Shown: positions 8,207-24,551 of the stretch, in pieces
Position numbering within the stretch: the stretch's first letter is position 1
How the letters are laid out: each line of letters starts with the position of its first letter
Origin: Methylomonas methanica MC09
GTDB taxonomy: Bacteria; Pseudomonadota; Gammaproteobacteria; Methylococcales; Methylomonadaceae
NCBI RefSeq assembly: GCF_000214665.1
Contig: NC_015572.1
Coordinates: 4,774,001-4,838,000, forward strand
DNA: 64,000 nucleotides
Direction of reading: 5' to 3'
The notes under the pieces: model-generated
Database searches by the model: none
The model's input: the letters and a program-made list of their open reading frames with translations, nothing else
What the model was told of the DNA's origin: nothing
Program-made: the position numbers and the translations under genes

Positions 8207-8224
8207 CCTGAAACATTATTCAAT
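8207..8224. repeat. Left attachment site core
   Basis: The 18-bp CCTGAAACATTATTCAAT is identical to 24534-24551. Similarity continues outside the core: both copies are preceded by a GAGA-rich stretch, GGGACAACC or GGAACAGCC, and a terminator hairpin. Confidence 0.9.
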
Positions 8225-8296
8225 ATTGAATCTGAATATATATTGACTATATAAGCAATTGATTTTAAAAGACTGAATTCAATGTGTTATTGCTAC

Positions 8297-8316
8297 TGGT
8301 GCCCGCATTGGTGCCC
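8297..8316. promoter_or_regulatory. Integrase arm-type sites, left end
   Basis: Two direct TGGTGCCC copies start at 8297 and 8309, exactly 12 bp apart. The right end has the same motif with the same spacing at 24414 and 24426. Confidence 0.75.
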
Positions 8317-8479
8317 ACTTTTAGCGGGCTTACATGGCATAGAATGATACACATAAATAAACCAACAGCATAAAACATAATCATGTTTCAGCATTAGTTT
8401 TGGCTTTCACGTTCCAGATATACCACCCCCACCAAACCCGGAAACCCCCAGCAAAGCCCCAAACCCAAACCGGCTATAC

Positions 8480-8624
8480 TGCATTCGCGGTTTAGACATT
8501 AATGCTGTTTGCTTAAACCGTACCCCGATATCATGGTGTCTTTGGTTCAGCTCCTTGCTATCGGTGGAGCATGGTCCTTGGGAGCCGGTCATCTTTTTAT
8601 CGTGGAGGGTGGCCGGCTTTTTTT
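8480..8624 (+). ncRNA. Candidate small RNA, opposite to all genes of the element
   Basis: Three hairpins follow each other on the plus strand: CGGTTTA/TAAACCG (8488-8520), GCTCC/GGAGC (8550-8570) and a strong terminator stem (8583-8618) with a seven-T tail. A TATACT at 8475-8480 could be a -10 box, but no clear -35 is present. No convincing coding frame occupies this span. Confidence 0.4.
8583..8624 (+). terminator. Strong plus-strand intrinsic terminator
   Basis: AGCCGGTCA pairs with TGGCCGGCT (nine pairs, one G-T) over an 18-base loop and is followed by seven T residues. No plus-strand gene lies upstream within the element. Confidence 0.8.
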
Positions 8625-8644
8625 ATGGGCGACAAGCGCTTGAT

Positions 8645-8672
8645 TTAAAACCACTCCCCAAATCTGGGGAGT
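8645..8672 (-). terminator. Probable terminator of the BRO/AlpA operon
   Basis: On the minus strand ACTCCCC and GGGGAGT pair over a six-base loop, followed by GGTTTTAAA. A second hairpin with the same loop lies at 8687-8700 (GCCC/GGGC), so the operon ends in two matched hairpins. Confidence 0.6.
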
Positions 8673-8708
8673 CGATTTGAGTCACCGCCCAAATCTGGGC
8701 TGTCCTCT

Positions 8709-8948
8709 TTATTTGGCTAGATATGGCCCGAGGAAATAAATCAACCCTTGTTCGGTTAGCACATCCATTTTTTGAGCACCATCAAGCGTTGGAATTGATG
8801 CAACGGCTTTCCACTCTTCCGGGACATGCTTTATTGCCTCAGTCACGTCAGTAAGGTCATGGTAGCCAATAGCCATCATTGCATCTTGCGCGACGAATAG
8901 CGGGTTGCCGTCGGCGTCTGGCACTACGCGGGCGCGTTTATCTGGCAT
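8709..8948 (-). CDS. Truncated BRO-N domain protein
   Basis: This protein of about 79 residues corresponds to the first part of a BRO-N (phage antirepressor) domain. RVVPDADGNPLFVAQDAM, IKHVPEEWK and VLTEQGLIYFLG align with the full-length BRO protein encoded at 9850-10626 in the same operon. It stops at GPYLAK, where the relative continues with the rest of the BRO-N domain and a C-terminal domain. The ATG at 8948 overlaps the upstream gene by 11 bases, a normal operon junction. It may be a decayed duplicate or a short modulator of the longer paralogue. Confidence 0.7.
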   Translation of the reverse strand: MPDKRARVVPDADGNPLFVAQDAMMAIGYHDLTDVTEAIKHVPEEWKAVASIPTLDGAQKMDVLTEQGLIYFLGPYLAK

Positions 8949-9789
8949 TTCGCACCTCAACCGGTTTTACTTGCTCAACAACTGCCAGCCTGGGCGGAAC
9001 CCGCTTGAGTAACGGCTCACCGTTCGGCTGCGTGGTTACTGTGTAAATCGTCAAAGGCCGCCCGGTAGATTCGACAAACCAGTCATTCAAAAAACCATGA
9101 GCCGATTCTCTGAGTTCTTTGTTTTGCATGATTTCCCGAATCATTACTTCGGAAACGGCTTCATGCAGCACGCATCCAGTTGAAACAAAATCGCCGGCAT
9201 TGGCACCGTCTTCGACGTGATAAATAATCAAGTGCATGAGGCCGGTTACATCGTCCATTGCTAAGGCTTTCTCTACATGAACATGGCTTGTTGACAGGAT
9301 CGCCGCGTATTCGTGCGGCGTTGCTTTGCCGTATTCGTCAAATACCTGAATCAGTTCGAAAATTCTGTTTTGATAAGATATTTTCGCCGGTTTGCAGCTT
9401 TCCAGCCAATTCGAATAGAAACTTATGCGCTCAATCAGAAGTTCCCCACGATGCTGAAAGAATGGATTGTCTTTATTTAGCTTAATCTCTCGTTCTGCAT
9501 GCCTGATATTTTGCCGAAGCAAGCGTTCAACTTTGTTTAGTTTGCGATATGCGTGCTTCAGCCTAAACAAGACACTAACAATCTTCTTTTGCTTACAACT
9601 GGCTAAGTCTGGCGCGTACTGTGCGAAGTCTGCCGGTAACCAGCCGGCATCCTCAAGCGTTTCTATGGCGCACTCGTTGCAATGGCAATCATCACCGTAT
9701 GCTTTAAGGTATTCGCTGTATTCGGCATCGGTCATGGGCGGCGCTTGGTTTCCGCACTCGCAAGTGAAGCTACTACTGGTATTGTTCAT
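8938..9789 (-). CDS. Hypothetical protein with N-terminal Cys cluster (element gene)
   Basis: I do not recognise this protein of about 283 residues. Near the N-terminus it has FTCECGNQAPP followed by CHCNECAIETLEDAGW, which could bind zinc. The middle is helical and charged (RLKHAYRKLNKVERLLRQ), and the end is proline-rich. The ATG at 9789 is preferred over a TTG at 9816 because AGGATT lies just before it. It sits between two BRO-N genes in a four-gene operon (AlpA, BRO, this gene, truncated BRO), so a regulatory or helper role is possible but unproven. Confidence 0.7.
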   Translation of the reverse strand: MNNTSSSFTCECGNQAPPMTDAEYSEYLKAYGDDCHCNECAIETLEDAGWLPADFAQYAPDLASCKQKKIVSVLFRLKHAYRKLNKVERLLRQNIRHAEREIKLNKDNPFFQHRGELLIERISFYSNWLESCKPAKISYQNRIFELIQVFDEYGKATPHEYAAILSTSHVHVEKALAMDDVTGLMHLIIYHVEDGANAGDFVSTGCVLHEAVSEVMIREIMQNKELRESAHGFLNDWFVESTGRPLTIYTVTTQPNGEPLLKRVPPRLAVVEQVKPVEVRNAR

Positions 9790-9849
9790 TTTTAATCCTA
9801 ATTTGTAATCGCTCAACCCGAAACCGGGCCGAGCGAATGGTGTACTTGG

Positions 9850-10626
9850 TTATTGAAGAAACGAGACAATCCGTTCGTGCCACTTGATTTGCTTTACGGG
9901 TGTACCGTTGCCCTGCTTTTTGCCGGTATCGAGCAACTCCGCATAATTTTCGCCTTTCTCGGTCAGCTTCCAGCACTTGCGGTCTTTGGCGTCCCGATAG
10001 CCTTGCTGAAAGCCTTTTGACTCAAGTAGTAAGTTGATTTTGACTGGTGACGAACTGAGCTGCTTGGCTATGTCCGAGGGCGTCAGCAAAACCTCCTTCT
10101 TTTCAGCCAGCAGGTGCGTTGCGTCAAGGTTTTCAAGCACGTTGATGCCGGTGGCTTTGAATGTCGCTTGGTTGGCAGACAATAGCGCCTGATTGCCTTT
10201 AAACAAGAGTTTTGCAACAGCATGGTTTGATTTGAATATCCGGTTTGCTTCGATGTTTTGCTTTGCAGGGGTGTCCGCCGTTTTTGGCCTTGCGGTATAA
10301 CTGCCGGTCTTGCGGATGGACGGTAGAACATCACCAGCAATCCATTTTTGCATGGGCAATGCTTTGGGCTTGTCACTTCGACCCAAAAAGAAATACAAAC
10401 CTTGTTCCGTCAACGCAACCACCTCCTGATCACCGCCAAGGGTGGAAATCCGAGTTCCCCCCTTCCATTCGACCGGAACGTGGTCTATGTATTTGCCAAC
10501 TCCACCAGCTACAGGATAATTAAGATTCTCCAAAACATCCTTAGCCACAAACAACGGTTCGCCGTTCGAATCAATAACCACACGAACCGATTTGCTTTCA
10601 AACTCGAATGGGATTAACTGACTCAT
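9850..10626 (-). CDS. BRO family phage antirepressor-like protein
   Basis: The 258-residue protein starts with a BRO-N domain: SVRVVIDSNGEPLFVAKDVL, YIDHVPVEWKG, VVALTEQGLYFFLGRSDKP, MQKWIAGDVLPSIRKTGSY. A second, C-terminal region follows a linker (KKEVLLTPSDIAKQLSSSPVKINLLLESKGFQ), resembling the helix-turn-helix-like C-terminal domains of phage regulators. BRO proteins bind DNA and often act as antirepressors in temperate phages. The start ATG overlaps the stop of the upstream AlpA gene as ATGA, so the two are translationally coupled. Confidence 0.85.
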   Translation of the reverse strand: MSQLIPFEFESKSVRVVIDSNGEPLFVAKDVLENLNYPVAGGVGKYIDHVPVEWKGGTRISTLGGDQEVVALTEQGLYFFLGRSDKPKALPMQKWIAGDVLPSIRKTGSYTARPKTADTPAKQNIEANRIFKSNHAVAKLLFKGNQALLSANQATFKATGINVLENLDATHLLAEKKEVLLTPSDIAKQLSSSPVKINLLLESKGFQQGYRDAKDRKCWKLTEKGENYAELLDTGKKQGNGTPVKQIKWHERIVSFLQ

Positions 10627-10898
10627 TCTGCACCCCCATCGATCGCATCCGCATTGCCGGCAACGACTGCCACCTCACGCTCTACATGGATTTTTTCGAC
10701 AAGCACCTTGATTTGATCGTTTGACTTGCCAGCTATCCTTGCTTTATTGATTTGCTCAACTTCGCTTAACGGCCACAACGCCGCCGCACCAACTTTTACC
10801 GGCTTAGGGAGCAGCCCTGAGCTAATATCGGCATAAATTTTGGATTTTTTTAGGCCGGTTTGTTTTTCAAGCTCCGGCATTCGTATCAGCCTATTCAT
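10623..10898 (-). CDS. AlpA-family DNA-binding regulator (copy 2)
   Basis: This 91-residue protein has a MerR/AlpA-type winged helix: RMPELEKQTGLKKSKIYADISSGLLPKPVKVG followed by ALWPLSEVEQINKARIAGKS. AlpA proteins activate integrase or excision genes in P4-like satellites and prophages. The element carries a second relative at 22173-22421 with the same AGKSxxxIK block. This copy heads the operon that continues with the BRO gene, overlapping it by ATGA. Confidence 0.85.
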   Translation of the reverse strand: MNRLIRMPELEKQTGLKKSKIYADISSGLLPKPVKVGAAALWPLSEVEQINKARIAGKSNDQIKVLVEKIHVEREVAVVAGNADAIDGGAE

Positions 10899-11000
10899 TT
10901 TTTTTACCTATACTGTATCCGTTGCGGAGTGCAACGGTTGGCAATAGATTTGCACGGAATATTTGCTGTTTTTGTGGCGTTTTCCGATTTTGATAGGCAC

Positions 11001-11026
11001 AAAAAAGCCGGGGGCTTCCCGGCTTT
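11001..11026 (-). terminator. Intrinsic terminator after 11051-11482 gene
   Basis: AAAGCCGGG and CCCGGCTTT pair perfectly over a five-base loop, with a run of T residues on the minus strand. It separates the gene at 11051 from the downstream AlpA operon. Confidence 0.88.
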
Positions 11027-11050
11027 GTCGAATTAAATAAAACCAATAAC

Positions 11051-11482
11051 TTACCGAAAGAATGTCGCGTAATGAATTATTTGATCTTGTGGGATGTTGC
11101 CAATGAATGTTCGTTCGTTGGCTCGGTAAAGCACTGCGGCGACGTGCAACAATATGTCGCTGTAGCGATCAGAGTTTTCTTTGGTATCGAACATAAACTT
11201 TAAACCATCCTCTTCGAAATTGATGCTTTCTAGTCCTATCGTTTTTAAAAAGTAGTCAACAACATCCAGTGCGAATCGGTCATCTGCTTCGTCCTTCAAA
11301 TCTTGCAAAAAGCAGTCAATATGCGCACAAAGCATGTTCTCTTTTACCATGCACGCGTAGGTAATTATAATTTCAGCACTCGCTTTTGCTTTTGCGCTTG
11401 GTTCGTAAAAACTGTCGACAATATGGTCTAAAGCTTTACCAACAACATCATCTTCACCTTGCTGTATTTTCATAACCTTCAT
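11051..11482 (-). CDS. Hypothetical element protein
   Basis: I do not recognise this protein of about 143 residues. It is acidic and predicted helical, with no signal peptide or membrane segment. The ATG at 11482 is chosen because AGGTGA lies seven bases upstream; an earlier codon at 11539 has no such site. A strong terminator follows the stop, so it is probably the last gene of its transcript. About 270 bases without a clear gene separate it from the next gene upstream. Confidence 0.65.
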   Translation of the reverse strand: MKVMKIQQGEDDVVGKALDHIVDSFYEPSAKAKASAEIIITYACMVKENMLCAHIDCFLQDLKDEADDRFALDVVDYFLKTIGLESINFEEDGLKFMFDTKENSDRYSDILLHVAAVLYRANERTFIGNIPQDQIIHYATFFR

Positions 11483-11755
11483 GTTTATTTCACCTATAAA
11501 TATATAACTGATCCGGGCATTGTTGCCGATCGAATGCATTTTAAAACATACTCTGTTGCTTTACATTTCCAGGCGCCAAGCTTTACGTTTCCATCGCCCA
11601 TATCCACCGAATACGGTTATGCAGGATCGTAACGGCATCGATTGCCAGCCAGACCAGACGGTTCGCTATCCTGGACCGGGTCTTGTCGACCATCCTGAGC
11701 AGGTGGCCGCGCAATTGCAGCACCGCAATCGCAATTCTAAACCTCGTTGACGGCC

Positions 11756-11992
11756 TCATGCTGCACCGCCTTCTGACCGAATCATCACATGAGATGCCAA
11801 CCGGATGGCGCTGATAAGCCCGCTTTTGGTAAATGGGTTATTGACTTCGGTAGGAATGGTTCTTTCGCTGCCGGCTTTCGCAGCGCAATCATCCGTTATA
11901 AATTCTTCAAGAAGCCTTGTGCAAGCAAGGACAACTGCGTAGGCCTCTCCTCTGTCGTTTGGGTTTGGCTTGGTGGTGGATTGTCTGCTCAT
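11756..11992 (-). CDS. Hypothetical small element protein
   Basis: The 78-residue protein has no motif I recognise. It begins MSRQSTTKPNPNDRGEAYAVV and ends SEGGAA. Its ATG overlaps the stop of the upstream gene (11989-12468) as ATGA, and both proteins end in a GGAA or GGAA-like tail, which supports real, coupled translation. Confidence 0.6.
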   Translation of the reverse strand: MSRQSTTKPNPNDRGEAYAVVLACTRLLEEFITDDCAAKAGSERTIPTEVNNPFTKSGLISAIRLASHVMIRSEGGAA

Positions 11993-12468
11993 GCTGCACC
12001 GCCTTGTACTTCGGCTGATCCATCAAAAAGCTCGGCGTCAAGCCCTTCTTTGATTTCCTTGAGCTCACGCTCGACGGCCCACAGCGAATAAGTAATAGCA
12101 TCGCCATACGCGGGATCGGAACAGGCGTCGATTAACAGTAAAATCACAGCGTGGGCACGTTGTGCGGACTCAAAAATACTGTCCAAGCTTGGCTTGCTTT
12201 GGGTTGGCTTGTTGGCGGGCGCTACGCTTGCCGGCGCATCCTCGCCGACTATCCTCTCCGCGCCTCCGATTATCTCGTCTATCTTCTCGATATCCGCGAT
12301 AGCAGACCTAATTGATGCGCCAACAATCTCATCGTTTGCTTGGTTGTCCGCATTAAGGTTGACGGAAATTAGCTGCAAAACGCCTTTGGCTTGCTCGGTG
12401 ATAAGGCCTAGCTCATCGATTAAGTCCAGGCTAATTATTTTACTTGGCTTGGTTGTTTGCTTTGTCAT
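11989..12468 (-). CDS. Hypothetical helical element protein
   Basis: This acidic protein of about 159 residues is predicted to be largely helical and has no recognised motif. The ATG at 12468 is chosen because AGGAGA precedes it; the frame is open further upstream to 12513, but without a ribosome site. The middle is alanine- and proline-rich (EDAPASVAPANKP), as in a linker between two helical halves. It is coupled to the 78-residue gene downstream by ATGA. Confidence 0.65.
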   Translation of the reverse strand: MTKQTTKPSKIISLDLIDELGLITEQAKGVLQLISVNLNADNQANDEIVGASIRSAIADIEKIDEIIGGAERIVGEDAPASVAPANKPTQSKPSLDSIFESAQRAHAVILLLIDACSDPAYGDAITYSLWAVERELKEIKEGLDAELFDGSAEVQGGAA

Positions 12469-12812
12469 GGTGGTTTCTCCTATGCTGGATAAAAACCGCC
12501 GCCTTGGTTCCAATCAACGGGCGACGTGGTTAAGTGGGTTGGAACTACCGCGCATAGGTGCGGCCAGCCGCGAAGCTGCCCAAATAACCACGCCATAACA
12601 GAATAAACACGGCATCAACCGTGCTGAATGACGGGCATAAAAAAAACCGCGTGAATGCGGCTTCTTTTCTCACGCCTATGCAAAAAACGGGGTTCCAATC
12701 CCGGCGCCGAATGTGTCGGCACGGTTAAAGCTTATGCTGGGTGGCGGGTGGGTGTCAAGGATTTGTTGTTGGTGCCGTTATATTTCACGGCTCAGCCAAT
12801 TCTTCGAGCGCG

Positions 12813-12849
12813 TGGGCATGGGATTCCGATAATTCGTCGGAAATGCCCA
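12813..12849. repeat. Imperfect inverted repeat
   Basis: TGGGCAT-gggA-TTCCGA on the left pairs with TCGGAAATGCCCA on the right, leaving a four-base insertion in one arm and a short AT-rich centre. It lies next to the terminator downstream of the small-terminase-like gene. It could be a protein-binding site or part of a packaging or regulatory site; this is not proven. Confidence 0.6.
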
Positions 12850-12851
12850 TG

Positions 12852-12877: not shown

Positions 12878-12900
12878 AAGCTAAGATCAGCCGAATGACT

Positions 12901-13422
12901 CTAATTTTCAATAATCCCCCGCTCAATCAGCACCAGGCGCTGGCGCTCCCTCGCCTTTTTCATTCTGTCTTCAAACTCAATCGCTAGGCGTTCCATCATT
13001 TCCGGGTCGGCTTTGAGAGATGTATCTTCAACTTCGACTTTATCACGCCACTTGTCCGGCTGACGATTCTTCATCCAAAAAATACAGGCCGTGGTATCTG
13101 GCGCGTAATGCTTGGTTATTTCGGTCTTAATAACCTCGCCCTCGTACACATTGACCTTGGTTTCCGGGTGGCTAAATCCAGTAGCGCGGTTGAATAGGGA
13201 ATTTGCAACCTTTGCATCGGCCGCGGTTTTGCCATCAAGGAGGGCTTGGGCAAACTCTGGATGCTGTTTTTTCCACGTGTTGATCGTTCTCGCGCTTACC
13301 TTGAAGAACTCACCGAGTTGAGCGTCAGTGGCGCCAAGGAGGCAGTAGTTGTATGCCAGCTCGGCATATTCTTCTTGGTATGCCGACGGCCTGCCGCCCG
13401 GGTGCTTTTTTGAGTTTGGCAT
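12901..13422 (-). CDS. Terminase small subunit-like protein
   Basis: The 173-residue protein has the layout of a phage small terminase. A GGRPSAYQEEYAELAYNYCLLGATDAQLGEFF helix-turn-helix region is followed by VSARTINTWKKQHPEF, the usual DNA-recognition block. A KTAADAKVANSLFNRATGFSHPE region then leads to a C-terminal helix. Small terminases recognise pac or cos sites and guide the large subunit. No large subunit is encoded in the element, so this protein may redirect a helper phage packaging motor. Its last residues, ARERQRLVLIERGIIEN, closely match the tail of the adjacent 125-residue protein. Confidence 0.75.
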   Translation of the reverse strand: MPNSKKHPGGRPSAYQEEYAELAYNYCLLGATDAQLGEFFKVSARTINTWKKQHPEFAQALLDGKTAADAKVANSLFNRATGFSHPETKVNVYEGEVIKTEITKHYAPDTTACIFWMKNRQPDKWRDKVEVEDTSLKADPEMMERLAIEFEDRMKKARERQRLVLIERGIIEN

Positions 13423-13853: not shown

Positions 13854-13857
13854 CGTC

Positions 13858-14409
13858 TTACTGGAATCCGTTGTTCAACGAATTGGCGACTCTACTGGTT
13901 TCTTGGTTTGCTTCATTAATCAGCCGCACCAATCTAGCGCCGCACTTCATATCCTCAAATCCGGGGTTAAGCTCCGCGAATCGCTTCAAAGTGGCCTTTA
14001 TCTGCCCCACCTTGGTATTGGCGGCCACTACTGCATTACTCAGGAACGAAATCTGGCTGTAGGTGCTGCGAATGGCCTCATCTTGGGCCTTTGTGGCATG
14101 TTCGAGGATGTTTTCCATCTGAGCCTGCTGAACCCGCTCTGGATCGCGCTGCCAGTGGTCCGATAAACCTAAGAGGAAATCGGCGCTAACCCCGTAGACC
14201 TCGGCGGCCTTGGGAATTAGCCAAAGCGGAACAGAGTTGGTATCACTGGCCAGCTCGACCTTGCTAAGCTTGCTGCTATTGTCGTACCCCAGCATTTTTG
14301 AGGCATTTATGCCACTCAGTCCGCATAATTCGCGCGAGAACTTCATGCGTTCGCCGAACGTGCCGATAATCTGTAACGTCTGAGCCTTTATTTCTGCGCG
14401 TGTCGCCAT
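13858..14409 (-). CDS. XRE-type helix-turn-helix protein with coiled-coil tail (copy 1)
   Basis: The 183-residue protein starts with a Cro/CI-type helix-turn-helix, about residues 15-80 (MKFSRELCGLSGINASKMLGY, then LIPKAAEVYGVSADFLLGLSDHW). A long helical region, about 90-180, follows (STYSQISFLSNAVVAANTKVGQIKATLKRFAELNPGF). It is a paralogue of the next gene upstream (14484-15074), with the same domain order and the FLLG/FLFG, LSNAV/LTNAV and NPGF/NPEW matches. Its location within the structural-like part of the element, not beside the integrase, is unusual for a master repressor. Confidence 0.8.
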   Translation of the reverse strand: MATRAEIKAQTLQIIGTFGERMKFSRELCGLSGINASKMLGYDNSSKLSKVELASDTNSVPLWLIPKAAEVYGVSADFLLGLSDHWQRDPERVQQAQMENILEHATKAQDEAIRSTYSQISFLSNAVVAANTKVGQIKATLKRFAELNPGFEDMKCGARLVRLINEANQETSRVANSLNNGFQ

Positions 14410-14483: not shown

Positions 14484-15074
14484 TTACGCGGCCTTACTGC
14501 TTGCATAGGCGGAAAGCATTTCAACCGGCAATAGCTTTTGCCGAACCATGGCTAAAACAGCTTTTTGTGCGGCTAATTTGGCTTTTGAGACTGATGACAG
14601 GACGGGCGAACTTTTCGCTAGATCAATCCATTCCGGATTTGCCTGTTGAAATGAATCGAGAGCATCGCTTATGGTCTGAATGGCCGGCGCCAGCGATTGA
14701 ACCGCATTGGTTAAGGTATTGATCTGGGCTTGCTGCTGAATAAGCTTGGCGGCAATTCTCGCTTGGTCTTTGGTAAGCTTGGCTTGAATATGGGATAGAA
14801 AATCTCGCTCTCGGCGTACTTCGGGAGCTATCTCCCAGTCTGAATGGCAACCGAAAAGAAAGTCGACTGACACGTCATAGGCCTTTGAGGCTTGTTGGAT
14901 AGCGTAGAGCGGGATTGCGTCTACATCGATTCCATTTTCGATCTGCCGCAATTCGCCTTGCGAGATCCCCATTATCTCCGCCGCTTCGTGGATGCTGTAT
15001 TTCGTCAGCTCTCGCGCTTCTTTAATGCGTGCGGCGATTGTTTTCAACAATGCAATCTCTTGTTTGTTATCCAT
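14484..15074 (-). CDS. XRE-type helix-turn-helix protein with coiled-coil tail (copy 2)
   Basis: From the ATG at 15074, which has AAGG upstream, the protein has about 196 residues. The helix-turn-helix is clear: RIKEARELTKYSIHEAAEIMGISQGELRQIENG, followed by AIQQASKAYDVSVDFLFG. A long glutamine-rich helix follows (KLIQQQAQINTLTNAVQSLAPAIQTISDAL). The longer frame to 15242 overlaps the upstream gene and has a non-phage-like basic N-terminus, so it is not used. Two paralogues in tandem suggest duplication, perhaps to make two repressors with different targets. Confidence 0.8.
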   Translation of the reverse strand: MDNKQEIALLKTIAARIKEARELTKYSIHEAAEIMGISQGELRQIENGIDVDAIPLYAIQQASKAYDVSVDFLFGCHSDWEIAPEVRRERDFLSHIQAKLTKDQARIAAKLIQQQAQINTLTNAVQSLAPAIQTISDALDSFQQANPEWIDLAKSSPVLSSVSKAKLAAQKAVLAMVRQKLLPVEMLSAYASSKAA

Positions 15075-15094
15075 TTTTTGCCTTGGTGGTGGTG

Positions 15095-15823
15095 TTATTG
15101 GCTTACGAATTTTTTGTAGTCTCTGCGGTCGATGGCGGTCAAAGTGGTAAGCAGCATCGGCACTTTTAGCTCGGTGAAATTGCCGTTTCGATCGATCGGA
15201 GCATTGGTATCTTTTGTTATGTTTTCGATAACCATTGGCCAATACGTCGCGCCTTTGTAGTTAACGGCAAGCATGACAGGCGCAGCGGAAGGAAAGGTGG
15301 ATTGGTAGCTAAGGCCTTGATCAAGTAGGCGAGCGGCAAGGCTACCTTCTTCCGACAGTTCTACGGGCAGAGCCCATTCCATCAACTGGTTAAACGGCTG
15401 GTGTACCTCTTTTACCGGGTCCGCCCATGCCCTAAACAGGGCGGTTACATTGAATTTTGCAGGCTGATTGCCGACATAAACCTGGGTTGAATTAAGCTTT
15501 GTTACGGATGTACGGCCTTCCAAGCCATGCGCTAAGCGTTGCAGGTCGCTGCCGAACACACCGTCTACCTTGCTGAGCAAACCGCTCAAACTTCCAGATT
15601 GAACCAATTGCTGCAAGGTAGGGCTCACATTCTGTGTGCCGGCATTTTCGAATGGGCTTGCCCATGTCGTTGATAATTCCAGGTTCGAATCGGTGAATAC
15701 GCACTTGACGACCGTGTCCTCCGTTTTATTTCCTTTGCGGTCGATAGGGTAAATTGAGGCAACCAGATTTTCATTTAGTCCGCCCCAATCCGATGTTAAA
15801 ACTTTGGTTTGTTGTTCTGCCAT
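15095..15823 (-). CDS. Putative phage tail/baseplate-type protein
   Basis: I do not recognise a named family for this 242-residue protein with certainty. Its C-terminal half has the style of tail proteins near the baseplate hub: VNYKGATYWPMVIENI, then IDRNGNFTELKVPMLLTTLTAIDRRDY, recalling gpU or tail-tip proteins. The central FNVTALFRAWADPVKEVHQPFNQLMEWALP block is also phage-like. It follows the tape-measure/lysozyme-like gene by 12 bases in the same transcript, the usual order in tail modules. A structural role is inferred from this context. Confidence 0.5.
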   Translation of the reverse strand: MAEQQTKVLTSDWGGLNENLVASIYPIDRKGNKTEDTVVKCVFTDSNLELSTTWASPFENAGTQNVSPTLQQLVQSGSLSGLLSKVDGVFGSDLQRLAHGLEGRTSVTKLNSTQVYVGNQPAKFNVTALFRAWADPVKEVHQPFNQLMEWALPVELSEEGSLAARLLDQGLSYQSTFPSAAPVMLAVNYKGATYWPMVIENITKDTNAPIDRNGNFTELKVPMLLTTLTAIDRRDYKKFVSQ

Positions 15824-17750: not shown

Positions 17751-17981
17751 TTAGCCTAATGTGTTTGATAGGTTAGCCATCCTTTCGGCGCATGTTTGAA
17801 ATTCGGCGTTGGCTTTGTTGAAAACGGTTTGAAAAGCTTTTAGCGCAAGCTCGTCGTCGGCTGATTTTCGCGGGTGCAGCAGAGTTTCTAGATCGCTGGA
17901 AATGCTGCTAATTGAAGACAAAATTGTTTGAATTTCATCTTTCGCGCTGTCGATCTTTTCGGAGGTGGTTGGGTTTTTCAT
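17751..17981 (-). CDS. Small helical protein upstream of the tail-like gene
   Basis: The 76-residue protein has no recognised motif and is predicted to be almost wholly helical (EIQTILSSISSISSDLETLL, then a charged second helix). It ends four bases before the tape-measure-like gene and probably belongs to the same transcript. Its size and position recall tail-assembly chaperones, but sequence alone does not show this. Confidence 0.6.
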   Translation of the reverse strand: MKNPTTSEKIDSAKDEIQTILSSISSISSDLETLLHPRKSADDELALKAFQTVFNKANAEFQTCAERMANLSNTLG

Positions 17982-18037: not shown

Positions 18038-18631
18038 TTATTTGCTGAATGGATTGGCACCAATGCCAAGTTCCAGGCGCGTTTGCGCCAGTTCTGGCAC
18101 GCGCGTGCCAACTAAATATGCGGCATCATACAGCGGCGCATCGGCAAGGTATTTCTGGATTTTTAGCTTCTCGTTTCGCAACTCATCTACCACAACATCC
18201 AGTGCCGAAATCTCCTCATCCGGATTAACTACGATGCTGTCAATCTCGGCTTGGCTGAATTGCCTTTTAATCAGCTCTTCGATCTTCTGCTTGTATGTAT
18301 CGATCAAAGATTCTTGCTGATGCTTTGTCGCCTCAATATCACCATCAATTTGCATGTAGCGAGATGAGGCGGCAGAAAGCAACGCCTGATCTCTGTCGTC
18401 GTACTGTTTCTGTCCCTTCTCCACAATGGCGACAGAAATAGCCAGGGCGTCCTGTAGCAAGGAAAGGCAATCGGTAACTTGGTCGATCAGGCGGTTTCCG
18501 CCATCAAAGACATTAAGTGATCGGACATCAATTTTTGCCAGCGAATCAACCGCTGGAGATAGCCTTTCGCGAGAATAAATAGCGGCTTCAAAACGCTTCT
18601 TAGTGATAGCTGTGGCGTGGCTTGTAGGCAT
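18038..18631 (-). CDS. Hypothetical coiled-coil protein of the tail-like module
   Basis: I do not recognise this 197-residue protein. It is helical, with a long charged coiled-coil in the middle (IDGDIEATKHQQESLIDTYK and KQKIEELIKRQF) and a C-terminal part ending GIGANPFSK. There is no signal peptide or membrane segment. It lies between the nuclease gene and the tail-like genes, so it may be structural or a scaffold. Upstream is a T/A-rich spacer of about 120 bases. Confidence 0.65.
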   Translation of the reverse strand: MPTSHATAITKKRFEAAIYSRERLSPAVDSLAKIDVRSLNVFDGGNRLIDQVTDCLSLLQDALAISVAIVEKGQKQYDDRDQALLSAASSRYMQIDGDIEATKHQQESLIDTYKQKIEELIKRQFSQAEIDSIVVNPDEEISALDVVVDELRNEKLKIQKYLADAPLYDAAYLVGTRVPELAQTRLELGIGANPFSK

Positions 18632-18751: not shown

Positions 18752-19177
18752 TTATCTGCTGTTCGTGATAATGTGACAAAACGCCGCCACGGATAGCGCA
18801 GCCGTGTATTCAATCTGTTGCGTTTGGGTCATGCTGCTGTTTACCAGCGAAATCGGCACAACCACGCGCCACGCTGAACGATTGGCCCGATAGCCTAGCA
18901 CTGGCATCAATCCGGCTTGATCGGCCTGTGTGACGGCCTGAGCCCACCATTTTTGAATCTGCGCGTCGGTGGCTGTTTGGTAGCGTTTGCACTCGATAGC
19001 CAATAGACGGAACGCATCGGCCACCGCGCCGGATTCGTCAGGATGTACGATCAGGTCGTGGCCACCGCTGCGGGTTTGCTCAAGGTTGCGGATCAGGCGA
19101 ACCCCGCACCAATCTTGAACCAGTCCGGCAAATTCTCTTTCTGCACCGGCGCCCTTTGCGCGTGAATTAATTGCCAT
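18752..19177 (-). CDS. PDDEXK-superfamily endonuclease
   Basis: The protein of about 141 residues has the layout of Holliday-junction-resolvase-like and phage PDDEXK nucleases. SRAKGAGAEREFAGLVQDWCGVRLIRN is followed by SGGHDLIVHPD, with the catalytic Asp, and LLAIECKRY, with the E-x-K pair. The region AVTQADQAGLMPVLGYRANRSAWRV is the usual last strand and helix. It could resolve replication intermediates or trim packaged DNA. The ATG at 19177 has GAGG upstream and overlaps the helicase gene by 11 bases. Confidence 0.8.
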   Translation of the reverse strand: MAINSRAKGAGAEREFAGLVQDWCGVRLIRNLEQTRSGGHDLIVHPDESGAVADAFRLLAIECKRYQTATDAQIQKWWAQAVTQADQAGLMPVLGYRANRSAWRVVVPISLVNSSMTQTQQIEYTAALSVAAFCHIITNSR

Positions 19178-20510
19178 TTCGTCTAACCTCAAATCCTTGC
19201 TGCTTGTAAATTACGCCGCGCTTGCGGGCTGCTGATATGCCAAAGCCGCATCGGTCCACAATATCGAGAATATAGGCGCATCTCTTGCCCGGATAAGGCC
19301 GCCTAGCCCTGCCAATGGATTGAATAAGTCTTGTGGCGGCCGGCGTTTTGCGTGCGACTTCGGCGGATACCGGGGCTGCAAATATCACCGCGCCCACATG
19401 CGGCCAGTCGATACCTTCGGACAGTAGCGAAAGCGTGCCGATAATCAGGTTTGATGTTTCGGCCTTGGCTCGCGCTGCGGCTTTTTGCTTTGCTGGCAAC
19501 TGACCATGTAGCAATACTGGTTCAGCGCCCTGTTCGATAGCCATTTGCGCCAATCTTTCGGCGTGTTCGATAGTTGAGGTTAAAACTGCCGTGCCAGTTG
19601 CTTGGCTGCTTTTCAAAGCTGACCTGATGATTAACTGGTTCCGGCTTTTGTCTGCTGCCAATTTGCCTAGAAAGTCCGTCCAGCTTTTAGGGATCCCAGT
19701 GAAATCATGGTGGATAGTCGAAACCACGACCGGCAGAACGGCGCCTTCCACGTCATCTTTTGAAATTTCCGCCACTACCGGGCCAAGAGCCGCGAATATC
19801 ATGGGCTCCAGGCCGTCCCGCCGCTGCGGCGTGGCTGATAGGCCGAATCGATACCTTGCCGCTTGCCGGTTAATCACGTTATAAGCCTGAGTCGCTGGTA
19901 CGTTGTGGCATTCGTCGACGATCAATAGGCCATAGTCCAAACTGCCTTCGTGTTTGACCAAGGTTTGTACGGTGGCAATAGTGAACTGTTCGCCCTCTAT
20001 CCACTTGCCGCCGCCGATAATGCCCGCATCCAGGCCAGCGAATTTTTCAATCGCACCTTGCCATTGGTGCGCCAGCTCCCGCGACTTAACTAGAATCAGG
20101 CATCTTTGACCAAGCCTTGCGGCTAGTTCAATGCCTATCGTTGTTTTCCCTGAGCCGGTCGGGCCCACGATCACGCCGCCGCCTGCAGTAATAGCGGATT
20201 GAATCGCGCGCTCTTGGTAGTCGCGCGTTTCGATACTGGTTTCGATGACGGCTGAGTGCGTGTGGCGTCGATCTTCAATTTTTTGAAGGATAATCCCCAA
20301 GGTTTTTAAGCAAACGCCACGCGGAATACTCAAACCACTTTCGTCTTGCGCGTAAAGCTTAATGGTGCGGTCGATGCCAAACGGCTTACGGCTGAATTTT
20401 ACGGCCTCAAGGTATTTTGGGTTTGGAATGGTTAAAGCATTCTTGATAGTCTCGACATCTTGGTTTGTTAGACCGATCAAATCGATTTTATTACCGATAA
20501 TTGTTTTCAT
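19167..20510 (-). CDS. SF2 DEAD/DEAH-type helicase
   Basis: This 447-residue superfamily 2 helicase contains, in order, RDYQERAIQSAI (Q-like), GPTGSGKTTIGIELA (motif I), LIVDECHN (motif II, DECH), GLSATPQRRDG (motif III) and QSIGRARRPYPGKR (motif VI). The N-terminal 95 residues form an extra domain. The overall layout is close to XPB-like helicases found in phages. It is probably used in the element's own replication, because it lies just downstream of the iteron array and the RepA-like gene and overlaps a nuclease gene. Confidence 0.92.
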   Translation of the reverse strand: MKTIIGNKIDLIGLTNQDVETIKNALTIPNPKYLEAVKFSRKPFGIDRTIKLYAQDESGLSIPRGVCLKTLGIILQKIEDRRHTHSAVIETSIETRDYQERAIQSAITAGGGVIVGPTGSGKTTIGIELAARLGQRCLILVKSRELAHQWQGAIEKFAGLDAGIIGGGKWIEGEQFTIATVQTLVKHEGSLDYGLLIVDECHNVPATQAYNVINRQAARYRFGLSATPQRRDGLEPMIFAALGPVVAEISKDDVEGAVLPVVVSTIHHDFTGIPKSWTDFLGKLAADKSRNQLIIRSALKSSQATGTAVLTSTIEHAERLAQMAIEQGAEPVLLHGQLPAKQKAAARAKAETSNLIIGTLSLLSEGIDWPHVGAVIFAAPVSAEVARKTPAATRLIQSIGRARRPYPGKRCAYILDIVDRCGFGISAARKRGVIYKQQGFEVRRNGN

Positions 20511-20545
20511 TTTTTTAACTCAAAGTTTGGACCGACAAGACGGCC

Positions 20546-20646
20546 GGACATGCCAGCCGGACACCGGACACTCCTTATAGGAGTGTGTCCGTGTCCGTCC
20601 GGGTCAGGACATGGCGGACAATGTCTGGATTTGTCCGGGTTTGTCC
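20546..20646. repeat. Iteron array with central palindrome, candidate replication origin
   Basis: Nine GGACA/TGTCC pentamers lie within 101 bases: forward at 20546, 20559, 20566, 20607 and 20616, and inverse at 20586, 20592, 20632 and 20642. Several are extended to CCGGACA or TGTCCGG. In the centre, ACACTCCT and AGGAGTGT (20568-20586) form a perfect eight-pair stem over TAT. The array lies between the RepA-like gene and the helicase gene, where an origin is expected. Confidence 0.75.
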
Positions 20647-20651
20647 GGTTA

Positions 20652-21764
20652 TTAGTCATTGATTGGCCACCAGTAATTGTCAAAGTTGCAAATCATCTGG
20701 CCGTTAAAAAGCTTGTCTCTCGTCCGTTTAAACGCCTTCTGTCTCGTGTCCGGGTTTTCACCGTCGATTCGTGGGTAAAAAAGGTCTTTCCAGTAGTCGA
20801 TGTTGACGACCTTTTTTGTTGATCCAGCATCAAAACCAGAGAAGGTTTTGATAATCGATTGGGATGGTGGAACGCCGTTTTGTTCTACGGCTTGATATAG
20901 GCAGTGAAGGGCTATTTCGTCTCGGGATGATAATTTTGGTTTTGCTTCAACCGGCCTGGCTTCTCCGGCGTGTTCTAAGTACACGGATGTCAGCGCGGCG
21001 CCATCCTCATCACACCAATCCAATGCAACAGGGGTAAGAGTAAATTGCATGGGCCGGAACGCTTCAAAATCCTTGGACTTGTGACAAGCCAGCACAACGT
21101 TGCAACCCTCTTTTGTCGAGCCAAACTCGCCATCCATCGCCGCACGAATTGAGCTACTGCCCCGGCTGCGGTCTTTCTGCCCATGGCCGCTATGATGAAC
21201 TACCAGAACAGCCGCGCCCAAGGGTTTTAGGTGGTTGTCGATGTTGGCAACAAACTGCCCAATATCGGCGCTGCTGTTCTCGTCGCCGGTCATGTTGCGG
21301 TGTAGCGTATCGATGATGATGAGGCCGGGATTCGGACAAAGCGACACGATAGAATCGGCCACCCATTGCGCGGCTTTTTCGTCGATCAGGTCGGCAGGGC
21401 GTTGACTAATAAACAACCCGTCCGGCGCTTTGAGTCCATATTTTTTCTCTAACGCCATAAGTCTGCGCGATAGCCCGGCAAAGCCCTCACCGGCAATCAC
21501 CACCACATCAGATTTGGTTGTTTTTTTGCCCTCCCACGAACGACCCGCCGCAACGCAAAACGCCCAATCGAGTGCGAAAAGCGATTTTCCCGCTGCTGGT
21601 TCACCGAAGAGCAAATTTAGGGAGCCGGCTTCCAAAATGTCAGCAACAAGCCATTGAATAACAACGGGCTTTGCAGTAAGCTCACTTGCGCGAATCAAAG
21701 GAAATCTATTTATTGGCTCCTGGCTGGCGGGCTCGGGGCCAATATCAATGTAATCAGGCAGCAT
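20652..21764 (-). CDS. RepA-like replicative ATPase/helicase (AAA_25 type)
   Basis: From the ATG at 21764, which has AGGGA upstream, the protein has about 370 residues. It resembles RSF1010 RepA and related hexameric helicases: NLLFGEPAAGKSLFALDWA (Walker A), a GRSWEGK segment, LIIIDTLHRNMTGDENS (Walker B) and AVLVVHHSGH (the RecA-fold sensor). The C-terminal 100 residues include a likely winged helix (SSRDEIALHCLYQAVEQNGVPPSQSI). The first 51 codons of the longer open frame are discarded because they overlap the upstream gene. This is the best candidate for the protein that acts at the iterons just downstream. Confidence 0.88.
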   Translation of the reverse strand: MLPDYIDIGPEPASQEPINRFPLIRASELTAKPVVIQWLVADILEAGSLNLLFGEPAAGKSLFALDWAFCVAAGRSWEGKKTTKSDVVVIAGEGFAGLSRRLMALEKKYGLKAPDGLFISQRPADLIDEKAAQWVADSIVSLCPNPGLIIIDTLHRNMTGDENSSADIGQFVANIDNHLKPLGAAVLVVHHSGHGQKDRSRGSSSIRAAMDGEFGSTKEGCNVVLACHKSKDFEAFRPMQFTLTPVALDWCDEDGAALTSVYLEHAGEARPVEAKPKLSSRDEIALHCLYQAVEQNGVPPSQSIIKTFSGFDAGSTKKVVNIDYWKDLFYPRIDGENPDTRQKAFKRTRDKLFNGQMICNFDNYWWPIND

Positions 21765-22164
21765 TTGCCGATCCCTGCGCACGATCCACGCGATAGGTTT
21801 TAATCGGCGGCTGATCTGCCGGCCATTCAAAATTCGGATTTGAGTAATCCACCCAACGCGGCCAAATCGTGACAGACTCAGCGCCAGCGCGTAACAGCTC
21901 ACGCGCCAGCTCAACAACCAACTGCTCCGGCGCCGGCTGTGTCCACTCGATTACGACCGAGCAGCAAGCAACAGGCCAGGACAGCGCCGCCAAATCGGCA
22001 TCGGGCGGCAATACCAGGGTGACGGAATCGCCGCGCTGATTACGGGCCTTGGCGCTGTTCCAGGCGTCACTGCCAACGCACACGACGACCAGCCACGGCG
22101 GGTTTTTAAAACGCTGCCGATCAGCAAGCAGTTTGCCAAATGGCGGCAATTTCTGGCTTTTCAT
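21754..22164 (-). CDS. Hypothetical element protein upstream of repA-like gene
   Basis: The 136-residue protein has a Rossmann-like feel (PPWLVVVCVGSDAWNSAKARNQRG, then VTLVLPPDADLAALSWPVACCSVVIEW), recalling toprim-type or nucleotide-binding folds, but no diagnostic motif is complete. It overlaps the RepA-like gene by 11 bases and follows the AlpA gene by eight bases. It may be a replication accessory protein. Confidence 0.65.
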   Translation of the reverse strand: MKSQKLPPFGKLLADRQRFKNPPWLVVVCVGSDAWNSAKARNQRGDSVTLVLPPDADLAALSWPVACCSVVIEWTQPAPEQLVVELARELLRAGAESVTIWPRWVDYSNPNFEWPADQPPIKTYRVDRAQGSANAA

Positions 22165-22172
22165 CGCCGCCC

Positions 22173-22421
22173 CTATGCCGCGTGAGCGCGAGCCGCAACC
22201 AGGTCGGAAACCAGTTGTTTTATTTCCAGTTCGGATTTGCCAGCGATAAATGCTTTATTGATTATTTCAATTTCGTTCGATGGCCAAGCCGAAGCTTCAC
22301 CGATTTTGATGGGCGGCGGCAATAATCCGGCCTTGATAGCGCGATAAAATGATGTTCGTGGTCTACCGGTTGCTTCACTGGCTGCCGCAAACCGCAATAA
22401 CATGATGATATTTTTTGCCAT
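22173..22421 (-). CDS. alpA: AlpA-family DNA-binding regulator (copy 1)
   Basis: The 82-residue protein has the AlpA winged helix: MLLRFAAASEATGRPRTSFYRAIKAGLLPPPIKIG followed by SAWPSNEIEIINKAFIAGKSELEIKQLV. It is the first gene of the replication operon and stands close to the integrase, the usual position of AlpA in satellites. An AGGTAACGTA/TACGCTACCT inverted repeat 78 bases upstream is a likely operator. A second relative is encoded at 10623-10898. Confidence 0.88.
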   Translation of the reverse strand: MAKNIIMLLRFAAASEATGRPRTSFYRAIKAGLLPPPIKIGEASAWPSNEIEIINKAFIAGKSELEIKQLVSDLVAARAHAA

Positions 22422-22498
22422 TTTCCAAAACCTTTGTTTGGAACACCGAGGGATTCGATGTCATGGCTAAATGTTCGCTATTTTCTCCGAGACGCATA

Positions 22499-22534
22499 AG
22501 GTAACGTATTTTTTATTTTTATATTACGCTACCT
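22499..22534. promoter_or_regulatory. Candidate operator/promoter region of the alpA operon
   Basis: AGGTAACGTA (22499-22508) and TACGCTACCT (22525-22534) are inverted copies with nine of ten bases matching. The 16-base spacer is almost pure A/T. The site lies upstream of alpA and just after the 3' end of the next gene, so it suits a regulator of the replication operon. Confidence 0.6.
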
Positions 22535-22549
22535 ATGTGATTGTTTTTT

Positions 22550-23110
22550 CTAAATTTTTACTTCTCCATATCCTTCTTTTGCTTCGCTGTCGCCCTTCCT
22601 CCAGGCCCACATTATGCCCTTGTATATCAGCTCTTCATTATTCGACTTGACGATGTTTCTTTCATCCAGCAGCACTATTATTCCAAGTGGATCGTGATTT
22701 ACATGAATTTTCCCCTCCCTCGGAATTGGGTATTTTTTCCTTGCCTTGTCGATACTACTCCCGTCAGCTTTGCACTCTGTGCCAAGCAACTCCAGAGCTA
22801 AGCCTTTTGCCTTATTGCTATTAATACCTTTCATGTTTCCATTTTTCTTTTCCACGGTATTTACAATTATCAATGACAGGTAATAGGCCAAGGCGTAAGT
22901 AAGCATTTTGTTTCCAGGCCTTGGTTTTCGAGGGTTCTTAAAAACATCGTCTGGCAAAGCAATTCCTGCATCACATGCTTTCTTACCATCGAAAAAAACT
23001 TGACCATATGACACGACGTTATTCATGTCTCTATAAAGCGTCGTTAAATCAAACTTAATCCTCTGGTCGTCAGATTCTAATCCCCATTTAATTCCTTCTA
23101 CATTAGCCAT
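22550..23110 (-). CDS. Hypothetical protein coupled to the integrase
   Basis: I do not recognise this 186-residue protein. It is more AT-rich than its neighbours. It contains a hydrophobic helix (MLTYALAYYLSLIIVNTVE) and a basic middle (KARKKYPIPREGKIHVNHDP), and has no signal peptide. Its start overlaps the integrase stop by eight bases, so the two are probably translated together. Its low GC suggests a later gain, for instance a cargo gene with an accessory or defence role, but nothing in the sequence proves this. Confidence 0.65.
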   Translation of the reverse strand: MANVEGIKWGLESDDQRIKFDLTTLYRDMNNVVSYGQVFFDGKKACDAGIALPDDVFKNPRKPRPGNKMLTYALAYYLSLIIVNTVEKKNGNMKGINSNKAKGLALELLGTECKADGSSIDKARKKYPIPREGKIHVNHDPLGIIVLLDERNIVKSNNEELIYKGIMWAWRKGDSEAKEGYGEVKI

Positions 23111-24365
23111 TATTCGCCTTCCTAAACGGTGTCACATTCCAATCCTTACCCTTTTCGCAAGCCTCAATAAAATTCGCCAGCTTTTGCAATGCGGCCTTGC
23201 GCTCGTCAAAGTAATCATGCCGGTTATAGATACCTTCAACACCTTTTATCTTGTGGTTTAAGCAACGCTCGGCAATATGGGATTCAATGCCCAAGGCTGC
23301 TAAGTGGGTGCGGGCTGTTCGCCTAAAATCGTGGATCGTGAACGGATCGACGCCGGGCATGTTGGCTTTCACTTTGGACAGGGCCACGTTCAAGGTGTTT
23401 TCATGAATGTACGGCAAGCGCCGGTCTTGATATTGCCTGGCAGGGAACAGGTAGACGCCATCGGACAGCCGGATAATATCGCGTAGCAACTCAACAGCTT
23501 GTTTCGGTAACGGGATGATGATCTCGGCTTTGGTTTTGGTGTCGCTGGTGGTCAGCTGCCAAGTGGCTTTATCTAAGTCGAATTGGTCTACCCGGGCGGT
23601 TACCAGTTCGCCTTTTCTCACGCACAGCATTAGCAGCAATTTAAAGGCGTACTCATTCAACAACGAAAAGCCTTTGGTCTTGCGCATGCCCTCGAACAAT
23701 ATCACCAGTTCATCACGGGATAGCGCACGGGTTCTAGGGTCTTCCTTGCCGCCAGCGTCGGACAAGTCGAACGCCGAAGCCGGGTTAAATTGAATGATGT
23801 GCCGCTTGATGGCATAGTCGAACATGCGCTTAGTCCAACGTAGCACGTCGTTAGCAACGGTTGGTGCTCCACGCTCTACGACAGTTTCCAGCATGTTGGA
23901 TATGTCCATAGGCTTAACATCCTCGACCGGAATCTTGCCGATGTTCGGTTTGATGTCCTTCTCTATTCTCGATCTAACGATGTTGGGATGCTTCCACCGG
24001 CCAAGAATGGTTTTTTCAAAATACTCTTCCGCCAACTGGCCCACTGTGTAGGCGTTTTTAGCGGCTTCGATCTTTTCCAGGGCTTCGGCTTTACGTTCCT
24101 GCTTTTCCCCGGCCACGTCATACCCAAGCGCCACACGTGCCCGATATTCTTTTGCCTGTCTGCGGGCTTCGGCAAGGGATAAGTCGGCATAGCTGCCCAG
24201 TGTCATAACTCTGCGTTGGCCAGCGAAACGATACCTAAAACGCCAGATCGGCATAGCGAAATTCTCTCGGTAACTTAAAAACAAGCCGCCGCCATCTCCG
24301 CGTTGCTCGAATCTTTCGCCGCTCTTGATCCACGCCCTAATTTGAATGTCTGTTAATGCGCTCAT
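23103..24365 (-). CDS. int: Tyrosine recombinase/integrase (P4-type, DUF4102 N-terminus)
   Basis: The 420-residue integrase starts with the DUF4102 arm-binding domain (IRAWIKSGERFEQRGDGGGLFLSY, then RFRYRFAGQRRVMTLGSYADLSLAEAR). A SAM-like core-binding domain follows. The catalytic domain has the Arg in LCVRKGELVTARVDQFD, HDFRRTARTHLAALGI (HxxR), LNHKIKG, and the nucleophile in YNRHDYFDERKAAL. It integrates the element at the 3' end of yicC. The gene lies 169 bases from the right att core, with arm-type sites in between. Confidence 0.95.
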   Translation of the reverse strand: MSALTDIQIRAWIKSGERFEQRGDGGGLFLSYRENFAMPIWRFRYRFAGQRRVMTLGSYADLSLAEARRQAKEYRARVALGYDVAGEKQERKAEALEKIEAAKNAYTVGQLAEEYFEKTILGRWKHPNIVRSRIEKDIKPNIGKIPVEDVKPMDISNMLETVVERGAPTVANDVLRWTKRMFDYAIKRHIIQFNPASAFDLSDAGGKEDPRTRALSRDELVILFEGMRKTKGFSLLNEYAFKLLLMLCVRKGELVTARVDQFDLDKATWQLTTSDTKTKAEIIIPLPKQAVELLRDIIRLSDGVYLFPARQYQDRRLPYIHENTLNVALSKVKANMPGVDPFTIHDFRRTARTHLAALGIESHIAERCLNHKIKGVEGIYNRHDYFDERKAALQKLANFIEACEKGKDWNVTPFRKANNG

Positions 24366-24381
24366 AATCCTCTCCTATGGT

Positions 24382-24433
24382 GGGCACCACTAAAAAAGCC
24401 AATTTTCTACAGGTGGTGCCCTTAGTGGTGCCC
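24382..24433. promoter_or_regulatory. Integrase arm-type sites, right end
   Basis: GTGGTGCCC occurs at 24413-24421 and 24425-24433, 12 bp apart, and inverted as GGGCACCAC at 24382-24390. The left end carries the same TGGTGCCC pair with identical spacing. These sites lie between int and the att core and probably also overlap the int promoter. Confidence 0.75.
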
Positions 24434-24477
24434 GGATATTATGCGCTTCCCAAGAACAATATGAAACAGCAAGGCAC

Positions 24478-24501
24478 AAAAAAGCCGCGATTTACGCGGC
24501 C
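24478..24501 (-). terminator. Element-borne terminator now serving yicC
   Basis: On the minus strand GCCGCG and CGCGGC pair over a five-base loop, followed by a T-run. The element appears to carry a replacement for the original yicC terminator, which now lies at 8153-8178. Confidence 0.8.
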
Positions 24502-24533
24502 TTGAAGGGGAATGAGAGACTTCCCGGAACAGC

Positions 24534-24551
24534 CTGAAACATTATTCAATG
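24534..24551. repeat. Right attachment site core, overlapping yicC stop
   Basis: The 18-bp CCTGAAACATTATTCAAT is identical to 8207-8224 and includes the TAA stop and last codons of yicC, so integration leaves the gene intact. Confidence 0.9.

Follow-up and report, generated by a model that had tools for sequence, protein, structure and literature searches.

Genes and boundaries of the element

In this study, the structure and relatives of an element integrated in the genome of Methylomonas methanica MC09 (a single contig of 5.05 Mb, NC_015572.1) were analysed. The window, namely the whole stretch of DNA that was analysed, comprises 64,000 nucleotides (contig positions 4,774,001–4,838,000), and the element spans positions 8207–24550 within it. 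A preceding sequence-only reading had described a satellite-like element with an 18-bp attachment (att) repeat, an adjacent integrase, its own replication module, two proteins like the small terminase subunit (TerS), a tape-measure/tail-lysozyme-like protein and a possible tail-tip protein, and had noted the absence of large terminase (TerL), portal, capsid, sheath and lysis genes. Most of this description was borne out. Exact direct repeats of 18 bp, attL and attR, bound the element and were also detected as a 38-nt pair with 84% identity; attR lies at the 3' end of yicC (24542–25405; TIGR00255, E 1.4e-79), and the integrase gene adjoins this side. The order on the minus strand is integrase, regulators, AAA_25 ATPase, ResIII helicase, PDDEXK nuclease, tail and terminase genes, AlpA and BRO antirepressor. 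The att repeats, integrase, replication ATPase and helicase, regulators, two proteins with a TerS-type tail, tape measure and tube-linking protein are established from the sequence itself. The features are as follows (HTH, helix-turn-helix; ORF, open reading frame).

24533–24550, no strand: attR, 18-bp exact repeat inside the 3' end of yicC
23103–24365, minus: tyrosine integrase (PF00589/PF22022/PF13356; phrog_1, E 4.4e-66)
22550–23110, minus: 186-aa protein, function unassigned, without family match; homologue with 62% identity next to the yicC integrase in genome G023
22173–22421, minus: small AlpA-like regulator, named by eye, without NCBIfam match; 84% identical homologue in G023
21754–22164, minus: 136-aa protein; homologue in satellite G094b (36%, E 5e-10)
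20652–21917, minus: AAA_25 replicative helicase/primase-type ATPase, start codon uncertain (PF13481, E 6e-37; phrog_906, E 7e-42)
19167–20510, minus: ResIII/DEAD-box helicase (profile match); 67% identical homologue in G094b
18752–19192, minus: PDDEXK endonuclease, resolvase-like (PF24608, E 1e-22; phrog_244)
18038–18631, minus: all-helical protein upstream of the tail genes (model pLDDT 83)
17751–17981, minus: 76-aa protein upstream of the tape-measure gene; weak WXG100 match, below cut-off
15836–17746, minus: tape-measure protein, 636 aa, with a tail-lysozyme cassette (PF18013, E 8.8e-21)
15095–15823, minus: PmgG homologue, tube-linking ring of the baseplate centre (phrog_1114, E 1.7e-54)
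14484–15242, minus: HTH protein between the tail genes and TerS (PF01381, E 1.2e-8)
13858–14409, minus: second HTH protein; homologue upstream of TerS–TerL in the P1-like phages L076 and L092
13476–13853, minus: 125-aa TerS-like protein; weak TerS matches, C-terminal tail in common with TerS
12901–13422, minus: TerS (phrog_309, E 5.7e-57)
11051–12513, minus: four small ORFs of 174, 78, 58 and 162 aa, function unassigned; partial homologue of the 174-aa one in G013
10623–10898, minus: AlpA-type regulator (PF05930, E 1e-8)
9850–10626, minus: BRO-N antirepressor (PF02498, E 1.5e-14; phrog_130, E 1.3e-38)
8938–9816, minus: 292-aa protein; 50% identical homologue in satellite G017
8709–8960, minus: short BRO-like fragment, an ORF named by eye
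8207–8224, no strand: attL, 18-bp exact repeat

Pfam and PHROGs scans covered 20 of the 23 ORFs (all except 22173–22421, 11583–11759 and 8709–8960), among which portal, capsid, sheath, lysis and TerL genes were absent; tblastn with P1-type references likewise found no portal, capsid, sheath or TerL in the element. Single weak matches were obtained to a TerL profile in the helicase (E 0.015) and to a head protease in the all-helical protein (E 0.014). Homologues of the all-helical protein stand upstream of the tail genes in seven of the eight bounded elements described below (the window's included, G240 excepted); a structure search with its model returned no informative fold match, and a tail-chaperone role for it is only a guess.

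Being discrete and integrated, with its own integrase and regulators and an incomplete set of virion genes, the element falls within the general definition of a phage satellite. Gram-negative phage-inducible chromosomal islands (PICIs) have an integrase, AlpA, a replication module and TerS at a size near 16 kb; all of these genes are present here, and the window element is of like size. PICIs are not known to bring a tail core. The hallmark of capsid-forming PICIs (cf-PICIs), an own major capsid protein (MCP), portal and TerL, was not found in the window by Pfam, PHROGs or tblastn with P1-type references. Virion genes are brought by cf-PICIs and by the Streptomyces satellites MulchRoom and MiniFlayer (PMC10690885); they supply capsid, portal and terminase, whereas the window element and its family bring neither capsid nor portal.

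The tail pair and its recurrence

Two adjoining genes of the element code for tail proteins. The product of 15836–17746 matches phrog_9570, 'tail length tape measure' (E 3.1e-31), with the unnamed family phrog_6922 as best match, and aligns end to end with phage tape measures of 948 and 1009 aa. Identity is 28% to the protein of a 72-kb phage contig (L003) and 26% to that of Xanthomonas phage Rb1, with 28 invariant columns across seven rows. Homology to this P1-like phage family extends over the full length, N- and C-terminal motifs included, P1's own ruler Sit lying outside the homology shown; the middle, wall-cutting section varies among members. The product of 15095–15823 is related to PmgG of P1 in sequence and matches it in fold. 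PmgG is a structural ring in P1 (PMC12810830), and P1 without PmgG lacks complete tails (PMC9024508). The supposed tail-tip protein is thus a tail part, but one of the tail core, for what the element brings is a ruler and the tube-linking ring of the baseplate centre, not a tip.

When 296 related genomes were searched for PmgG, 12 gave matches: eight hold satellite-type loci (G000, G005, G013, G017, G025, G034, G094 and G240), two are phage-like (G227 and G167), one is unclassified (G169) and one has fragments only (G086). Besides the window's, seven further elements of 11.0–28.7 kb are bracketed by repeats inside or beside tRNA genes (two at tRNA-Lys, three at tRNA-Met and one each at tRNA-Ser and tRNA-Asn), the site in G017 being assigned by repeat identity only. 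The G025 element, at tRNA-Lys, measures 23.8 kb. In tblastn with P1-type references, these eight bounded elements contain tape measure (8/8), HTH (8/8), TerS (7/8, G240 being without) and, in G025 and G017, TerL following TerS (2/8), whereas MCP, sheath, portal and tube were found in none. The same queries detected MCP, sheath, portal, tube, tape measure and PmgG both in a prophage-like stretch of G227 and in phage Rb1. The tail-without-head arrangement therefore recurs in relatives at unrelated att sites, and so is not the product of a single deletion. As evidence against a satellite, the sequence-only reading had named relatives with terminase, portal and capsid genes in the same place; none was found, TerL being present in two of eight and portal and capsid in none.

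The tape-measure gene was also used as a separate key. Its profile gave strong matches in six of 37 genus genomes, the same six that hold PmgG, and weak or partial ones in three others; the window's genome gave an additional weak match. In G240, the 11.0-kb element codes for PmgG and for a tape-measure relative of 564 aa that contains an endolysin-type domain. Integrases and replication genes vary among members (AAA_25, DnaB-like, primase-helicase, helicase and primase types), whereas the tail pair is constant. Contig G094:C1 alone holds three satellite-type elements, at about 660 kb, 2.385 Mb and 3.628 Mb. From PmgG rightwards to the end of the element, the second and third (b and c) have closely related genes, but their integrases and replication genes differ, which points to modular exchange.

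Among public viral contigs, 80 PmgG loci, some of them near-copies, were kept of 291 confirmed. A sheath gene accompanies 65 of 78 loci, nine are satellite-type and four are others (three with only gp21 at the contig end, and L105, phage-type by later comparison); the remaining two, L040 and L041, are satellite-type. Homologous PmgG occurs in P1-like myophages (P1, Rb1, Acinetobacter phage ABMM1 and IMG/VR contigs L045, L076 and L092), a homologous tape measure in Rb1 and L003, and TerL, HTH and TerS tail in L076. Unlike the elements, these phages have MCP, portal, sheath and tube genes, and PmgG of the viral contigs follows sheath and gp21 instead of standing beside the tape-measure gene.

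The tail kits are graded. Some loci have PmgG and ruler; others add a homologue of P1 gp25 (L040, L041, L047, L054, L075, L117, G005 and G034) and, in L040 and L054, a phrog_4333 protein in common with phage L045. L117 (8422–10917) has PmgG followed by a P1 Tub-related tube protein (E 5e-7), a relative of the tube initiator, then TerS, with gp25 as well. Complete satellite tape measures measure 564–721 aa in 12 of 13 cases, and phage ones 842–1009 aa (n=6).

These data bear on the possibility that the element is what remains of a P1-like prophage from which the genes for head, sheath and lysis have been lost. Homology to P1-like phages is indeed seen in the tail and terminase genes, and a short BRO-like fragment lies in the window. 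However, PmgG and tape measure are 5–20 kb apart in six phages with a complete tape-measure gene, whereas in all eight bounded elements they stand side by side or with a single HTH gene between them, and this tight pair recurs with different att sites, integrases and replication genes. Remnants of MCP, sheath, portal or tube, such as a defective P1-like prophage would keep, were found in none of the eight, the controls being positive. The helper-type sheath was absent from all 37 genus genomes, the same query being positive in two of 11 control genomes (G227 and G167). In addition, PmgG and tape measure of relatives are under purifying selection: omega was 0.075–0.358 in 12 pairs restricted to dS < 1.5, a limit that all pairs involving the window exceed, so that the window's own copies would share this constraint by extension.

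The yicC target and exchange among elements

Of the 11 genus yicC loci that were examined as best matches, three (L124, L132 and L133; genomes G015, G028 and G023) carry an integrase 87–91% identical to the window's in the same position, and yicC is a repeatedly used integration target. In L124 (81–1331, G015) the integrase is 91% identical and the contig end is close by. The element's left flank aligns beside yicC in L124 and L132, both occupied, and over 91 nt at 79% in L128, a locus without integrase match; a clear unoccupied site was not found among the genus loci examined. Repeats of GTGCCC/GGGCAC at 8299, 8311, 24382, 24416 and 24428 are candidate arm sites, and further single copies occur at 12153 and 24137. 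Just outside attL, a 461-aa protein (6438–7823) matches the candidate defence family PDC-S59 (E 1.8e-72).

A look for the same gene order at yicC or other sites had been proposed in the sequence-only reading. The arrangement recurs in the seven elements at tRNA sites. At yicC in G028 (L160/L161, G028:C82:161362–170368), an 89% identical integrase heads a 9.0-kb yicC element with a 25-bp bounding repeat, which codes for AlpA and a 669-aa protein and gave zero matches to the tail, head or terminase references searched. Integration and tail modules therefore recombine, the same integrase being found with an element that lacks tail genes. The G028 element, too, speaks against a decayed prophage. 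In favour of decay, G023 holds a clearly decayed element of like type as well as an interrupted window-type integrase at yicC, after which come homologues of two window proteins, the 186-aa one and AlpA. That decayed element (L158/L159, G023:C2:630021–633445) has HTH, a shortened TerS and TerL amid transposases, and PmgG and tape measure were not found in it. On balance, the prophage-remnant explanation is strongly disfavoured and the least probable of those considered here.

Exchange is also visible in the PmgG tree, whose 94 rows comprise 20 satellite, 69 phage and 5 unassigned sequences. Satellite and phage labels change five times, against a mean of 18.2 after shuffling (0 of 500 shuffles as low), and well-supported branches force at least two changes. 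As judged from this tree, satellite PmgGs cluster strongly, but they have more than one origin or have been swapped with phages.

Terminase and the chimeric-tail reading

Both proteins proposed as TerS-like in the sequence-only reading carry nearly identical C-terminal tails. Of 50,697 phage records, 405 match TerS itself (12901–13422). When seven satellite tails were combined into a profile, it detected the tail in nine of 20 satellite-type loci (window, G005, G013, G017, G025, L040, L041, L054 and L117), five of which supplied the profile itself. Against 7,533 ORFs of phage-type loci it gave one significant match, at E 3e-7 with the next at 0.53, namely to the C-terminal end of a TerS of 425 aa in L076. 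This TerS directly precedes a TerL 70% identical to the TerL of the G025 satellite, with MCP, sheath and PmgG after it. The N-terminal parts, presumably DNA-reading, differ. The window TerS thereby resembles what would be expected of a packaging-redirecting TerS, and its tail may dock on TerL.

Taken together, we regard it as reasonably likely that the element is an integrative phage satellite, one of a family that parasitises P1-like contractile-tailed phages and brings its own TerS and tail core to make chimeric tails, which are probably hybrids of the satellite's and the helper's parts. Upon helper entry, the element would excise and replicate; its TerS, with another DNA-recognising part and a helper-type tail, would dock on the helper TerL and steer satellite DNA into helper capsids. 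The satellite PmgG ring and ruler would displace the helper's and seed chimeric tails made otherwise from the helper's hub, wedges, tube and sheath, thereby carrying the satellite's own wall-cutting cassette. Such tails may be shorter, because most satellite rulers are shorter than those of the six phages measured; at 0.15 nm per residue, as used in PMC9024508, a difference of about 370 residues would amount to as much as some 55 nm. A satellite that supplies the tail-starting and tail-measuring parts and a motor-capturing TerS, with all remaining parts coming from a P1-like helper, is the most economical reading.

Several observations weigh against this reading. Excision, packaging, virion composition and helper type are predicted from sequence and homology. 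The TerS-tail profile is partly circular, as noted above; it did not find the tail in the three G094 elements or G240, and it stayed below threshold in the other phage TerS that is complete beside TerL (L092 and its copy L093, whose TerL is 40% identical). PmgG was the search key, so its presence in 8/8 elements holds by construction and satellites without it would be missed, and the wide surveys sampled few members. The L075 tape measure is long (872 aa), and in L117 a tape measure was undetected beside PmgG and the tube protein. The G028 element indicates that the tail kit is not tied to the window-type integrase, and the five label changes in the PmgG tree mean that these genes were captured or exchanged several times. 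No helper phage for the host was identified by the sheath search of the genus genomes. No capsid-resizing or tail-chaperone genes were recognised in the element, PICI-specific interference and capsid-remodelling genes not being searched for specifically.

Two other uses of the tail genes were considered. First, tape measure and PmgG may be dominant-negative decoys that poison helper tail assembly and protect the host without entering satellite particles. Tail proteins could jam helper assembly, a further point against chimeric tails; PLE11, a PICI-like element (PLE) of Vibrio cholerae, also has a tail-assembly inhibitor (PMC12987554), and blocking of tail assembly as a defence is the topic of PMC11364771 and PMC10884400. 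Nevertheless, both proteins are full-length in architecture with N- and C-terminal motifs kept, the window's tape measure includes a lysozyme cassette, and the pair accompanies TerS in seven of the eight elements. A decoy would not require a wall-cutting domain, and such a weapon is unlikely. Second, the element may be a PICI-like satellite whose tail genes are entry cargo only, such as a host-suited wall-cutting cassette, in mostly ordinary helper tails. Integrase, AlpA, replication module and TerS together make up the gene set typical of PICIs, and the wall-cutting middle does vary among members; however, PmgG, which lacks an entry enzyme and forms a structural ring in P1 (PMC12810830), still accompanies the tape measure, and the cargo explanation appears somewhat less probable still than the decoy.

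The chimeric-tail reading has a precedent, and the earlier view that known satellites bring either no virion parts or capsid parts was not borne out. PLEs, whose helper is ICP1, have their own tape measure and tail assembly chaperone, and chimeric tails are made; PLE11 additionally codes for a baseplate hub, and in satellite particles the tape measure and hub of ICP1 give way to those of PLE11 (PMC12987554). The PLE11 ruler differs from the helper's by 95 aa, and the tails are about 10 nm shorter (PMC12987554). PLEs were called the first family of such kind, and a figure legend marks putative tmp genes in PLE-like elements and cf-PICIs (PMC12987554). Both systems are integrated satellites with their own tape measure, a protein of the baseplate centre (in PLE11) and, as predicted for the window family, a ruler length unlike the helper's and use of helper capsids and most helper tail parts; the likeness is one of gene content. 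They differ in the helper, apparently P1-like for the window family; in the PmgG tube-linking ring as against the PLE hub BhuB; in that the window family has its own TerS, whose tail is of helper type, and in some members TerL; in its larger ruler difference; and in that tail incorporation was shown for PLE and is deduced for the window family. In the literature searched, we noticed no published report of a PmgG-carrying satellite.

A broader proposal stands at about an even chance: that a PLE-independent satellite lineage nucleates its own chimeric tails, its PmgG ring and short ruler capturing the helper's hub, tube and sheath and its TerS, with a swapped DNA-recognition part and a TerL-docking tail of helper type, capturing the motor, with graded tail kits, so that tail-core piracy would be a second general strategy beside capsid piracy. 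Well-characterised satellites were previously held to take helper tails unchanged, and rebuilding of tails has been reported for a single family, PLE (PMC12987554). A second such family with a P1-like helper type would, if true, make tail-core rewriting a general satellite strategy, and how a satellite ruler wins over the helper's would become testable with a single ring protein, PmgG, as partner, which in P1 is essential and structurally solved. A sequence handle for such satellites is PmgG beside a tape-measure gene, with TerS and without sheath. The results also add to knowledge of mobile elements in methane-oxidising bacteria.

Further genes were observed beside these loci. A satellite gene in L023 (3761–4705; G017:C1:870861–871805) matches phrog_1926, 'released from the phage upon host infection', a description that the P1 record also uses for DarA, and a P1 DarA-like gene stands beside PmgG in G169 (L012). 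In the G025 element (L002, 13509–16086), SRAP-, UmuD- and UmuC-like genes were recognised by eye between PmgG and the HTH gene. In the phage contig L003 (16740–21181), a fibre-like gene with a reverse-transcriptase-like gene downstream, both named by eye, is possibly a diversity-generating retroelement.

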